A DNA stretch of 64,000 bases from NCBI GenBank assembly GCA_016192995.1, contig JACPTB010000013.1:1-64000 (forward strand), written 5' to 3'. The notes under the pieces were generated by a model. That model made no database searches, was not told where the DNA came from, and saw only the letters and a list, made by a program, of their open reading frames with translations. Source of the stretch: Candidatus Woesearchaeota archaeon. Its GTDB lineage: Archaea; Nanobdellota; Nanobdellia; Woesearchaeales; DSVV01. The translations under genes and the position numbers were made by a program. Positions 19,342 to 47,946 of this stretch are shown piece after piece; the stretch's first letter is position 1; every line of letters starts with the position of its first letter.

Positions 19342-19355
19342 ATTATGATAAGAAA

Positions 19356-19519
19356 GGCGTTATTGAAAAGCTTGATGTTGCCATCAATATTGCGAAGCTA
19401 ATTGAAATCAAATTCGAGTACTTTTCGGAGTGCCAGAGAGAAAAGTACTATCTATGAACTATGCCAAAGCTGAGCCGATGGCAACCTTTGCTTTGCAAAG
19501 AGAGCTTTTCAATAACGCC
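19356..19519. mobile_element. MITE-like inverted-repeat element, copy E
   Basis: A 164-bp element with terminal inverted repeats GGCGTTATTGAAAAGCT ... AGCTTTTCAATAACGCC. It is flanked by the perfect 9-bp direct repeat GATAAGAAA at 19347-19355 and 19520-19528. The internal hairpin at 19417-19449 has stem AGTACTTTTC / GAAAAGTACT around the conserved loop CGGAGTGCCAGAGAG. Compared with copies A-D (stem GGATTTTTC / GAAAAATCC) both stem strands have changed together, so pairing is preserved. No coding frame is supported. Confidence 0.88.
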
Positions 19520-19550
19520 GATAAGAAAAGAGAAAATAAAAAGGAAAAAC

Positions 19551-23815: not shown

Positions 23816-26800
23816 ATGAAACGAGATGAGAAAGGTTCTAATCTTAACCCTGAAAAAAGTGCTTCTCACGATGAAAATGTTCCGGTCTTAGATTCTCATA
23901 TTATTGAAAAACCTATTGAACAAGAAATGAAAACAGCATATCTTGATTATGCAATGTCAGTTATTATTGGAAGGGCATTGCCAGACATTAGGGATGGTTT
24001 AAAGCCTGTTCATCGAAGAATTCTCTATGCAATGTACGATATGGGGATGCTGCATAATAAGCCTTTTAAGAAGAGTGCAAGAATAGTTGGTGAATGTTTT
24101 GTAAAAGATACACTAGTAGCAACTTCTCGAGGATTAATTCCAATCCAATATATTGAGAAAGGAGATGTTGTATCTACGCAAAAGGGTGAGCATAAAGTTA
24201 CTGAATTATATGAAATGCCTGAGAAAAAATTATTAAAAATTATTCTAAAAAATGGAACTTCAAATACAGTTACACCATCGCAAAAATTTAAAGTGATTAA
24301 TGGGGAGTTAGAGTTTGTATGGAAGGAAGCAAAAGATTTGAATGAAGAAGATTATGTAATGGTCAAAAATGTTTATCCGAATATTAAAAAAGAGGTTTTG
24401 CTTGGTAAGTTCAATAATAAGAGAATTTATCTTAATAAAAATATTGCTTATGTATTAGGCCAATTATTATCAGATGGATGGGTAGAAAAAGGATATAATC
24501 ATAGGAAAGGCTTTCGTTGCGGCTTTTGTTCAAATTCTGTTGAAGTAATTACTAAAATCAAAGAAATTCTGCAACAGGAGTTTAATTATGAAGCAACAGT
24601 AGAATATAAAGAAAAAGAAATAATAACTGCTTCAGGAAGTCTTTTGTTAAGTAAACTTCAAACAGTGCGAATTAATGCGACTGCAATAAATCAATTCTTA
24701 GTGCAAGCATTTAACCTTGAAGGTGTAAATGCGTATACTAAAATAATTCCAAAACAAATATTTCAATCACCTCAGTCTGTAGTGTTTTCTCTTATTTCAG
24801 GTATGATTGATGGTGATGGCAGTGTTCACAACAAAAGGAATCAAATTCACTATGGAAGTATCTCAGAAAAAATGATTGACCAACTGCAAATATTGCTTCA
24901 GTCTCTTGGCGTTATGAGTAGAAAATCAGTAACTACCAAATTACTTGGGGGTGTCATTAATCAACGAAAAATAATGAGCAAGCATCCTTTTTATAATTTA
25001 GAAATAGAAGGAAGGTTTGCAGTGCAATTAGCCAAACAATTACAGCTTCAGCATGAAATAAAAGCTGAGAGGGTTGCTAATTTTAAAAAAAAAATGTTGA
25101 AGGTAAGTCATTTTGACGAAATTCCTTATGCAGGGAAAGTTCTTTTTGAGGAATTATCCAAGCATCATCTTGGTAGTGGTTGGTATAAGGATAAGATCAA
25201 TTCAAAATATTCTGACGTTATAAATCATATTTTAGAAAATAACATTTTCTTTTTAAAAATTGAAAAGGTTGCAGAAGCAAAGAGTGACAAAACATACGAT
25301 ATTCAAGTTGAACATGAACACGAATTTATAGCGAATGGTATGATCTCTCATAATTGTCTCGGAAAATATCATCCACATGGTGATTCAGCTGTTTATGAAT
25401 CATTAGTAAGAATGGCTCAGGATTTTTCACTGCGTTATTTATTAGTCGATGGTCAAGGTAATTTTGGAAGTATCGACGGTGATTCAGCAGCCGCAATGAG
25501 GTACTGCATTACCGGTGATAGTTTAGTTATTACTAATGATGGGTTAGTAAGAATTGATGAAATTTCAAAACAAGAAAATATTAACATCAAAGTTCTTTCA
25601 AAAGATAAACAGGTTCATGCAGCTTCAAAATGGTTTGATTCAGGTCAACACCCAACCTTAAAAATTATTACGAATAAAGGATATTCTTTAACTGGTACGT
25701 ACAATCACCCAGTACTTACTATGACTGCTAATGAAATAGGCAAGCCCATCTTTGAATGGAAACTACTTGAACATATCCACGAAGGAGAGTTTGTTGTTAT
25801 TGATCGTTCAACAGATACGTTCTGGCCAGAAAAGCAGAAAGAATTAGTATCTTATTATCCTGAAATTAGAAAAACAAGAAAACCAAGAACATTGCCGCAG
25901 TATCTTAATCAAGATCTCGGATATATTTTAGGATCTTTCATTTCAGAAGGAACGTTGAATGCTGATAATAAAATAGAGTTTTGTAATACAGATATAAATT
26001 GGATTAATGCATTATCAGCAGTGTGGAATAAATTATTTCCTGATACAAGGTTGCATTTTTTCAAGAGAAAACCAAGTTCGTATGGTAAAAAAGAATATTA
26101 TAGGTTAGAATGTCATGGTCGTTATACATTAGAGTTTCTCCGAAATATTGGTTTAACAGCAACTAAATCAGCCAAGAGAGCTGTTCCAAAACTGATATTT
26201 CAATCACCTAAAGAAGTTGTTGCTTCATTTTTAAAAGCATATTTTGAAGGAGATGGAAGTATAAGCTATGCTCATAAAATGATAGAACTAAGTTGCTGTT
26301 CAAAAAGTGAAGGATTAATAACAGAATTACAAATTTTACTGTTGCGTTTTGGTATTGATAGTTTCAAAAGATACGATAAATACAGAGAAATTTGGAAACT
26401 ATATCTCCGTGGAAAACGAAATGTTCTTAGATTTTACAAAGAAATAGGATTCTTGTCAGATTATAAAATGAAGAAATTAGAATATGTTCTTTATAACTAC
26501 AAAAAAGAGTCCTCAAGCACTGATTATGTTCCTTTTATCTCTGATTTTATAAGAAGCAGAACAGATGATTCATTTACTCAAAAAAACAATTTTGATCGTT
26601 ATGGAACAATGGAAAAAAACTATCATACTATTTCAAAAATTCTTTTAGAAAAAACAAAAGTTGATCATGCTTCATTATTTGAGTATTTTCTAACGTACAA
26701 TTATTTATTTGACAAAGTTCTTGCAAAGCAAGAAGCAGGTATTCAAAAAGTGTTCTCATTAAGAGTCGATAGCAATTGTCATTCTTTTATTAGCAATGGT

Positions 26801-28924
26801 ATTATCAGTCATAATACTGAGTCGCGAATGGCAAAACTCGGAGAAGAGCTTCTTCAAGATATTGACAAAGAAACAGTTACGTTTGTTGATAATTTTGATG
26901 GCAGTTTAAAAGAACCAAACGTACTGCCTGCTAAATTTCCTAATTTATTGGTTAATGGCAGCTCAGGTATTGCTGTAGGAATGGCTACAAATATTCCGCC
27001 GCATAATTTGGGCGAGATTAGTGATGGGATTGTCAAGGCAATAGATAATCCTGGTATTTCAATTACAGAATTGATGAATTCAATCAGAGGCCCTGATTTT
27101 CCAACAGGAGGTTTAATTTTAGGAAAAGCTGGTTTGGTAAGCGCCTATACCACAGGAAAAGGCAAGATCAAAGTTCGCGCTAGAACAAGCATTGAAACAA
27201 AAAAAGAGCGCGAAGCTATTATCGTCCATGAAATTCCTTATATGGTCAATAAGTCAACATTAATTACTGAAATTGCTGAATTTGTGAAGGATAAAGTTAT
27301 TGAAGGGATTTCAGATTTGCGTGATGAATCTGATAAATCAGGATTAAGAATTTATATTGAACTTAAAAAAGGAACTTCAGCAGATGTCGTATTGAATCAA
27401 TTATTCAAACATAGTAAATTGCAGGTTACTTTCGGTATAAATTTCCTCGCCATTGTTGATAACAAACCGCGAACATTGTCTTTGAAAGAGATGGTAGGCG
27501 AATTTATTAAACACCGTAAGGATGTGATTACAAAACGAACACAGTATGATCTAATAAAAGCAGAGGAAAGGGTGCACATTCTTGAAGGGTTAAGAATTGC
27601 GTTGGATAATATTGATGGAGCCATTGCATTAATCAAAAGCTCAAAAGAAACAAAAATTGCTCGTGATAAATTGATGGAGAAATATACACTAACTGAAATA
27701 CAGGCTGTAGCAATTCTTGATATGAAGTTGCAGCGTTTGACTGCTCTTGAGCAGGATAAAATAAGGCTAGAGCTTAAGGAACTTTTAACTAAAATTGTAG
27801 ATTACAAAGATATTCTTGCTCATGAAATAAGAGTGCTTACTATTATCAAAAATGAATTGCAAGAGCTTAAAAGCAGCTATAATGATGAGAGAAGAACAGA
27901 GATCACGAATATTGATGATGATAACTTAGAAATTGAAGATTTTATCGAAGAACAAGAGTGTGTTGTTACTATCACGCATGCAGGATATGTAAAGCGCTTG
28001 CCCGTTGATACGTATAAGTCCCAAGGGAGAGGGGGAAAAGGCATTGTTGCCACAACAACTAAAGACGAAGATGTTGTTGAACATCTGTTTATCGCTAACA
28101 CCCACGACTCTTTGCTGGTATTTACTAATGACGGCACGGTCCATTGGATGAAAGTATTTAAAATTCCTGAAGGTTCTCGCCAAGCAAGAGGAAAAGCAAT
28201 AGTTAATCTCCTTGCTATAGATGAAAAGACAAAAATTACTTCCTGTATCCCTATTAAAGAATTTGTTGCAGACAAATATTTAGTGATGGTAACTGAGAAA
28301 GGCGTGGTGAAAAAGACTTCGCTTGAAGCATATTCACATCCTCGTCAAGGTGGCATTAAAGCGATTACTTTAGATGAAGGTGATTGCCTAGTGAATGTAT
28401 TGCTCACTGATGGTGAATCTCAAATATTAATTGCAACCCGCGATGGGCAGGCAGTTAAATTTCATGAAGAAGATGCACGGGCGATAGGAAGAACTTCTCG
28501 AGGAGTAAGAGGTATAACCTTAAAGGGTGATGACACAGTAATTGGTGCAGTGATTGCGAAAGATGAAAAAACATTATTGACTATAACTGAGAATGGTTAT
28601 GGAAAACGGACACCCGTAAGTGAATATCGCCTCATTAATCGTGGTGGTTCAGGAGTTATCAATATCCAATGTTCTGAGCGCAATGGTAGAGTTATTGCAG
28701 TTGATGAAGTTAATGACGAAGATGAATTAATGTTCATCTCGAAAAACGGTATTATTATCCGTACTAGGGCAAAAGATATCTCGAGTATTGGGAGAAACAC
28801 CCAGGGTGTTCGTTTAATGCGTCTTGATGCAGATGACAAAATAGTAGCTACAGCAAAGATCGTTAATGAAGATAATCCAGAAGAAATGAAATTCACTTAT
28901 AATCCAAATCATCCTCATAAATAG
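23816..28924 (+). CDS. gyrA: DNA gyrase subunit A with two inteins
   Basis: 1702 residues, of which 857 are two inteins; the spliced product is 845 residues, normal for GyrA. The extein reads [33 protein letters not shown], then (after intein 1) [15 protein letters not shown] and GDSAAAMRY. Tyr563 is the catalytic tyrosine that bonds to DNA. After intein 2 follow [13 protein letters not shown], the tower/coiled-coil region and a C-terminal beta-pinwheel with a GyrA-box-like QGRGGKG. With GyrB (not in the window) it introduces negative supercoils. Archaeal gyrases are generally viewed as bacterial acquisitions. A leaderless promoter and an upstream palindrome precede it; MITE copy A follows it. 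Confidence 0.97.
24095..25354 (+). mobile_element. Intein 1 in gyrA (420 residues, LAGLIDADG endonuclease)
   Basis: Residues 94-513, inserted between VGE and [10 protein letters not shown]. It begins [13 protein letters not shown] and ends MISHN, with Cys as the +1 extein residue, so all splice-junction residues are present. Two DOD endonuclease motifs are visible: [13 protein letters not shown] and [12 protein letters not shown]. The usual block B histidine (TxxH) is replaced: the codons give TPSQKF. Splicing may therefore follow a modified course. The endonuclease motifs keep their acidic residues, so homing activity is plausible. Confidence 0.93.
25505..26815 (+). mobile_element. Intein 2 in gyrA (437 residues, LAGLIDADG endonuclease), at the catalytic tyrosine
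   Basis: Residues 564-1000, inserted directly after Tyr563 in AAMRY/TESR. This is the site known for the mycobacterial GyrA inteins, and the N-terminus [13 protein letters not shown] resembles theirs. Block B is intact ([10 protein letters not shown]), block F is [14 protein letters not shown] and the C-terminus is IISHN before Thr. Endonuclease motifs are [11 protein letters not shown] and [12 protein letters not shown]. Until it is removed, the gyrase active site is split. Confidence 0.94.
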
Positions 28925-28938
28925 GTGTTGTTTAACAT

Positions 28939-29099
28939 GGCTCTGGTGAAAATGTAGTTTTTGGCATCTTTTGGTGAGGCTCTTCAGTGTTATCAACGAG
29001 GATTTTTCGGAGTGCCAGAGAGAAAAATCCAGTCAAACTACACTTCAAAAGCCGAACTGATGCCAAAACCGAGGCTATGCCGAGATTTTCACCAGAGCC
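28939..29099. mobile_element. MITE-like inverted-repeat element, copy A
   Basis: 161 bp with termini GGCTCTGGTGAAAAT ... ATTTTCACCAGAGCC. The flanks GTTTAACAT (28930-28938) and ATTTAACAT (29100-29108) match at 8 of 9 bases. The core hairpin at 29000-29030 has stem GGATTTTTC / GAAAAATCC. The right flank contains the stop codon of the lipid-kinase gene, so the element sits exactly at that gene's 3' end, between it and the end of gyrA. Confidence 0.87.
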
Positions 29100-32709: not shown

Positions 32710-32871
32710 GGCTCTGGTGAAAATGTAGTTTTTGGCATCTTTTTGTGAGGCTCTTTAATTTCATAAGTGAGGATTTTTCGGAGTTCCAGAGAGAAAAATC
32801 CAATAAAATATACTCTTAACAAGCCGAACTGATGCCAAAACCGAGGCTATGCCGAGATTTTCACCGGAGCC
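32710..32871. mobile_element. MITE-like inverted-repeat element, copy B
   Basis: 162 bp with termini GGCTCTGGTGAAAAT ... ATTTTCACCGGAGCC. It is flanked by the perfect 9-bp direct repeat ATCTCTAAC (32701-32709 and 32872-32880). The core hairpin GGATTTTTC / GAAAAATCC is at 32771-32801. Its sequence is very close to copy A over most of its length. It lies between the divergent starts of tldD and the 32917 gene; the TATA box of the latter begins a few bases after the right duplication. Confidence 0.92.
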
Positions 32872-37363: not shown

Positions 37364-38842
<1,479 letters not shown>

Positions 38843-47722: not shown

Positions 47723-47946
47723 GGCTCCGGTGAAAATGTATTGCGTAGCAATATACCATCAAAGAAAGTCAAATATTATTCAATCTTTCTTTGATTCGTA
47801 TAGTTTTTGGCATCTTTTGGTGAGGCTCCTTAAGTTTAGGTGTGGGGATTTTTCGGAGTGCCAGAGAGAAAAATCCAATGAAATCTACTCATCAAAAGCC
47901 GAACTGATGCCAAAACCGAGGCTATGCCGAGATTTTCACCGGAGCC
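47723..47946. mobile_element. MITE-like inverted-repeat element, copy D, with internal insertion
   Basis: 224 bp with termini GGCTCCGGTGAAAAT ... ATTTTCACCGGAGCC. The flanks GAGTACTAG (47714-47722) and GAATACTAT (47947-47955) match at 7 of 9 bases. The core hairpin GGATTTTTC / GAAAAATCC is at 47846-47876. Compared with copies A and B it carries about 60 extra bases after GAAAATGTA, including a hairpin ATCAAAGAAAG / CTTTCTTTGAT. It begins directly after the carB stop codon. Confidence 0.85.

Follow-up and report, generated by a model that had tools for sequence, protein, structure and literature searches.

A conserved, covarying hairpin module inside MITE-like elements of a Candidatus Woesearchaeota genome

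The hairpin at 19417-19449 is part of a folding module that recurs inside MITE-like elements, which typically measure about 150-165 bp. Its helices covary, its sequence is conserved while the adjoining spacers vary freely, and it is spread over 23 families and found behind outer ends of several types, with target duplications of 9, 8 or 4 bp. The best reading of these elements, although in our judgement one for which belief and doubt are about evenly balanced, is that they carry a selected, cis-acting module of folded DNA. The cutting and joining of such outer inverted repeats by DDE transposases is established, and here such enzymes would act on the ends in trans, while the conserved module inside, consisting of P2, P2b with its tandem G-A mismatch and P3 with its fixed 13-nt loop, would work as folded DNA, be it as a hairpin formed by one strand or as an extruded cruciform. 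The module would in this manner aid proliferation in cis and might be usable by several transposases or by a host factor; copies with a broken fold would leave no offspring, and template switching across the arms would help to keep these matched. Against the notion of a selected folded-DNA module weigh the facts that no transposase partner turned up in the host genome among the protein families sought, that the overlap of the module with IS5 proteins is at expectation, that the GA mismatch is dispensable and that the folding z-scores are moderate.

The element and its copies

The window, meaning the whole stretch of 64,000 nucleotides that was analysed, contains five copies of the module, all of them on the + strand. 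The first is a complete mini-element of 164 bp at 19356-19519 with E-type ends (GGCGTTATTGAAAAG...), flanked by the target duplication GATAAGAAA on the left (19347-19355) and on the right (19520-19528). Its left and right terminal inverted repeats (19356-19372 and 19503-19519) are the arms of an outer helix, P1, within which are found P2 (GTTGCCATC at 19377-19385 and GATGGCAAC at 19477-19485), P2b (GCGAAGCT at 19392-19399 and AGCTGAGC at 19468-19475, with a tandem GA mismatch) and the core hairpin P3, made up of the left arm AGTACTTTTC (19417-19426), the loop GGAGTGCCAGAGA (19427-19439) and the right arm GAAAAGTACT (19440-19449). The unpaired loop is 13 nt long, since the C that closes the loop forms a pair with the right arm's first G. 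A small hairpin, P4 (CTTTGC-TTT-GCAAAG, 19486-19500), is found on the right side only; it was read from the sequence and is paired in the predicted centroid fold.

Copy 2 has G-type ends, GGCTCTGGTGAAAAT, and occupies 28939-29099 (inner arm 28960-29071), while copy 3, likewise of the G-type and with the flanking duplication ATCTCTAAC, is found at 32710-32871 (inner arm 32731-32843) and copy 4, with the Y-type ends GTACGTAATAAGTC, at 38690-38842 (inner arm 38710-38821). Copy 5 (47723-47946, inner arm 47806-47918) is again of the G-type and reaches 224 bp by a hairpin-rich insert of about 60 bp between P1 and P2. This insert (ATTGCGTAGCAAT... CAAAGAAAG...CTTTCTTTG, window 47735-47800) recurs at an identical position, between P1 and P2, in the copies L031, L033, L048, L054 and L067, and another insert of about 50 bp, CCTGAATCCGAAGGATCTCAGGG...TTTTTAATAAAA, occurs at one constant place between P2 and P4, on the right side of the module, in L010, L023, L030, L044, L046 and L141; the latter look as if small hairpin modules get added at the junction. 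The genes around the window copies are unrelated and encode for instance gyrase A, a TldD-type protease, adenylosuccinate synthase and carbamoyl-phosphate synthase. The gyrase A frame (23816-28924) is 1,702 aa long and contains intein splicing and LAGLIDADG domains, probably from more than one intein.

The loop pattern, with up to two mismatches allowed, has five matches in the window (19426, 29008, 32779, 38760 and 47854, each on the + strand) as compared to 0.10 expected in shuffles, the largest count in any shuffle being 1. The earlier note had described the loop as the same in all five copies, and the five matches bear this out except for a T in place of a G (CGGAGTTCCAGAGA) at 32779 and 38760, two of the four copies that it had called A-D. 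The exact loop word is found 59 times in the host genome, its reversed control not at all, and the 23-nt core with up to three mismatches has 159 matches in the 1.6 Mb of that genome, in comparison with which 103 copies were fetched and analysed. Copies are present in both orientations, and the arms that flank the loop in those fetched fall into four main classes, GGATTTTTC, AGTACTTTTC, GCAATTTTC and ATGCTATCC. Chance matches in coding sequence (L101, L115, L124-L127, L129 and L132-L134) were excluded as elements, with L115 still among the 75 items of the end-matching test given below. Self-pairing of the loop in a kissing interaction was considered and dropped by eye, the GAGG and GGAGTGCC alleles breaking the pairing.

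Covariation, conservation and arm copying

In an alignment of 24 subfamily representatives from seven genomes the module comprises three helices, and RNAalifold unaided recovers the identical three. P2 is GCCATC/GATGGC with variants, P2b appears as GCGAAGCT/AGCTGAGC, GTGAGGCT/AGCCGAAC, GTGAGCAT/ATGCGAAC and others around a GA/GA tandem mismatch (one AA among the 24 representatives), and P3 is the core stem. All three covary: 17 of the 23 pairs change on both sides, and the cells changed on both sides number 98, compared to 30.0 for shuffles and 0-8 for slid controls, with 94.0% against 77.8% paired cells in this test, figures for which it should be borne in mind that the copies are related and the cells hence not independent. 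Furthermore, the 12 distinct 7-nt arm pairs have a mean of 6.92 Watson-Crick pairs out of 7, whereas 5,000 re-pairings of the arms averaged 4.62 and did not exceed 6.08. This test drew on own and related copies together (150 rows, each 100 nt or longer, of which 133 had a stem of at least 6), and counted among the latter only rows with an AGA/CCAG loop. The notion that stem bases change together on both strands, put forward in the earlier note along with a statistical covariation check on the copies, is thus in agreement with both tests, and changes in the arms preserve pairing far beyond what chance would give. The termini were said there to behave in the same way, and paired ends are indeed seen, but this is merely what terminal inverted repeats do.

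The cleanest test is a search with the loop only, no stem being required, since the alignment set had partly been collected by way of the core. It gave matches in 13 of 352 genomes, with one genome for the reversed control, and the flanks of the loop pair in all seven genomes that have real elements, while coding chance matches are unpaired. The six genomes with paired arms other than the host (G051, G057, G141, G151, G154 and G273) include new arms such as GGCAAAATTC/GAATTTTGC and CTGTTC/GAACAG. The tandem GA/GA is retained in 98 of 103 own rows and in 38 of 42 related rows; it is nonetheless not indispensable, since in one family Watson-Crick pairs take its place in the three genomes G274, G275 and G276, at loci L233, L231 and L234 (GCGAACAC/GTGTTCGC, GCAAACAC/GTGTTTGC). 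Distant members retain P2 and P2b and have the core loop in other forms (GGAGATTGCAAGAGA, GGAAATTGCAATGGGA and a TACGGGGA class).

For identities within the host genome, as for the pairing counts of the next section, 10 of 113 own covariance-model matches were left out as partial or identical, leaving 103 distinct copies. In the 84 copies with the main stem the P3 arms are 95-99% identical and the loop and P2b about 95%, as opposed to 53-54% for both spacers, and in the 52 Y-type copies P2b reaches 99-100%, P3 95-99% and the loop 94%, with spacers at 54-57%. The left and right spacer clusters furthermore occur in 42 combinations among the 103 copies, indicating that the halves are shuffled by recombination; that spacers are shuffled but ends hardly mixed is what one would expect were onward movement restricted to copies whose arms and ends match. 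These values bear on the view that the elements are plain decaying MITEs, derivatives of lost insertion sequences whose conserved core reflects shared ancestry and recent amplification. Short length, inverted ends, target duplications and many copies all fit such an origin, but spacers that in the very same copies have diverged to about 55% identity do not, nor does the presence of the module in 50 of 352 genomes and 23 families and behind different ends, and we find this explanation improbable.

Matched arms may also arise with no selection at all, if one arm is rewritten from the other during replication by template switching (quasipalindrome correction). Indeed, in the copy L053 the loop is inverted relative to the sister L014 and the right arm is a copy of the left, giving a perfect stem of 22 bp, and L047 has a stem of 16 bp, compared to 9 bp in 52 of the 59 exact-loop copies, or 52 of the 57 besides these two. 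Their footprints match those described for template switching in PMC8794818 and PMC8604942, where the mechanism itself is set out. L047 and L053 are template-switch products, the latter a clean case within a hairpin, for which a parent resembling L014 supplied the left arm. Arm copying is therefore a contributor, yet it is not the whole explanation: copying pairs changes without making them rare and leaves the unpaired loop unprotected, so that selection is needed besides. Within a type the arms, the loop and P2b are nearly invariant beside spacers of about 55% identity, the unpaired loop is conserved as well, and the GA mismatch, which would be easily corrected, is retained. Arms that change clearly more slowly than spacers, as the present identities suggest, speak against the sufficiency of copying, and template switching alone is accordingly a rather unlikely account of the fold. 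The alternative of inverted duplication, named by the earlier note itself, does then occur but fails as a full explanation, and the selection on structure that the note proposed is supported, loop, P3 and P2b being 94-99% identical in the main stem type as opposed to about 53% for the spacers.

Pairing as DNA or as RNA

Selection on the fold might act on a transcript, the module being a small RNA or part of a host transcript, and the covariation, the conserved loop and the tandem G-A motif are all typical of structured RNAs. Where selection acts on a helix of RNA, G-U pairs are tolerated on the strand that is transcribed, whereas A-C mismatches are not. Counted in 144 rows and 3,082 cells, from which one of 42 related matches and the outermost, mostly unpaired P3 pair had further been omitted, the module has 3,037 Watson-Crick pairs, 17 G-T, 12 A-C and 16 other, whereas seven tRNAs from the same loci, admittedly a small control of 151 cells, have 136 Watson-Crick pairs, 15 G-U, no A-C and no other. 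The RNA reading is made less likely, and pairing at the level of DNA is favored, by this nearly pure Watson-Crick composition and by the absence of any excess of G-T over A-C. Template switching could mask wobble intermediates (PMC8794818), and as the tRNA control is small besides, the comparison lowers the standing of the RNA reading and does no more. Rfam likewise had no match at the gathering score in the window, and in 20 related loci it returned tRNAs and one sub-threshold match overlapping a tRNA, with nothing at the element; the sole match at the element, mtPerm-5S, scored 22 bits against a cut-off of 39 and was dropped as chance. Furthermore, copies are present in both orientations, and those of the window lie between unrelated genes. 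We consider a structured RNA unlikely, and the small RNA or transcript end that the earlier note had offered as a reason for the fold finds little agreement with these counts. Predicted folds of single-stranded DNA for the five inner arms of the window have z-scores of -2.2 to -4.5 relative to shuffles, which is moderate, and a 140-nt stretch of the E copy has -1.7.

Outer ends, transposases and spread

When copies were sorted by their outer repeats and the flanking direct repeat was scored at each length for a value standing out, every end type proved to have a preferred duplication. The G-type (GGCTCTG..GAAAAT, n=32) has a target duplication of 9 bp with a mean identity of 0.73, compared to about 0.3 at other lengths, the Y-type (GTACGTAATAAGTC, n=51) one of 8 bp (identity 0.79, 25 perfect), the N-type (GAGAACTTTGCAAAAT, n=10) one of 4 bp (0.80, 5 perfect) and the E-type, to which the element at 19356-19519 and its relatives belong (n=9), one of 8 bp (0.76, 4 perfect, and one perfect at 9). 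Typical elements measure 151-164 bp, and in 51 of 75 items their two ends agree at 11-14 out of 14 positions. They combine short length, terminal inverted repeats, a fixed duplication length for each type and a high copy number, as MITEs do. Both ends are of one type in most own copies; among 90 items compared, 8 of which had an end outside the recognised patterns, opposite types are joined in one clear copy only, L026, and no target duplication of L026 was found. One transposase does not usually produce duplications of 9, 8 and 4 bp, and probably at least three types of transposase are therefore involved.

These lengths are in poor agreement with transposase recognition, likewise raised by the earlier note, in the form in which the hairpin is the site read by one structure-reading transposase and the outer repeats need pairing but no fixed sequence. 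Such an enzyme would account for outer repeats that vary widely between types around a fixed loop, but the duplication length follows the outer repeat, with the same core accompanied by 9, 8 or 4 bp, and this largely refutes it. In addition, insertion sequences lacking the module have G-type ends and a 9-bp duplication as well, and we give a single enzyme of this kind very little credence. The insertion sequences in question are of the IS5 family and occur in related genomes, where ends of the G-type class such as GGCTCAGTAGAAAGTC and GGCTCTGTCCTGAATC are found with exact 9-bp duplications; among 30 loci examined this combination is present at L265, L269, L267, L247, L248 and L259. Judged from these ends, an IS5-type transposase is a likely kind for the G-type, the enzymes matching PF01609 in the Pfam search being DDE transposases that we take to be of the IS5 family. 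None of 40 IS5-type transposase loci contains the module, the two matches of the covariance model falling outside the transposase genes, and these 40 loci thus give no sign that the interior of the G-type elements derives from an IS5-family insertion sequence.

The host genome has no protein matching PF13610 (IS6-type), PF00872 (IS256-type) or PF01609 (IS4/5-type), nor one resembling the IS5-type protein of G141. A missing insertion sequence was sought at the contig ends as well (C1-C12 and C14 at their ends, C13 at its far end, C15 throughout and 12,000 of the 14,868 bases of C16), which revealed no sequence common to contigs and no pair of ends at kilobase spacing with a transposase. The start of contig 1 (G000:C1:1-2500, L147) contains internal direct repeats of about 300 bp that are 75-88% identical. 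Across 352 genomes the module and IS5 proteins co-occur in 16 as compared to 12.5 expected (P=0.145), which is not significant. At the Y-type ends of other genomes no transposase was seen, the reading frame of 422 aa next to one of them (L284) has no Pfam match, and a look for viral contigs gave none. In other genomes of the order there are short elements (L283, L292, L294, L295, L300 and L304) that lack the module but have Y-type ends and perfect duplications of 8 bp.

A more specific version of the folded-DNA reading, which we offer tentatively as a possibility and no stronger, is that the module is self-contained and tied to no single transposase, that it moves, in the form of matched arm pairs, between differently ended mini-elements and that it drives their spread in a single-stranded or cruciform state, perhaps with a host protein bound to it. 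In that case it would be a hitch-hiker on several transposon families. MITEs are usually considered to require only their ends, and a fold that is kept while ends, duplication length and spacers vary would mean that the interior of a MITE can be under selection and would imply a folded-DNA step common to different transposases. The family would also be a clean natural case in which selection on structure can be separated from arm copying by template switching, more than 100 copies in one genome offering arms, loop and spacers for comparison.

Similar multi-copy intergenic repeats with conserved hairpins are the BOX elements of Streptococcus pneumoniae, ERIC and the REP/RAYT hairpins, likened here by description only, and REP/RAYT elements are not known to make a target duplication. 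In integron attC sites, again likened by description only, it is likewise the folded single strand and not the sequence that is conserved, but the present elements are dispersed and have target duplications and a fixed loop. The IS5-family insertion sequences of G141, G149, G246 and G317 share with the G-type the ends GGCTCTGTxxxGAA.. and the 9-bp target duplication, but differ in encoding a transposase of 270-300 aa and in lacking the module. Bacterial and archaeal MITEs, as portrayed in PMC10969869, are likewise short, AT-rich and intergenic, with terminal inverted repeats, target duplications, many copies and stem-loop folds, whereas here one covarying module with a fixed loop is common to elements with different ends and duplication lengths. 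Among the titles listed by searches of the literature on Woesearchaeota or Woesearchaeales, DPANN and archaeal MITEs, subscription papers being set aside, none concerns such a family.

None of the ten other genomes of the host's own family carries the module, so its spread is patchy. A covariance model of the inner arm (R1) nonetheless has matches with E up to 1e-4 in 50 of 352 genomes of the archaeal order, distributed over 23 families, and the related genomes include JAUYGA (Nanoarchaeota archaeon) and JACOUX (Candidatus Woesearchaeota archaeon). G125 has nine matches with one and the same score, several of them at contig ends, as fresh copies would. All 24 matches among 371 sampled genomes of the phylum, genomes of this order included, fall within the order.
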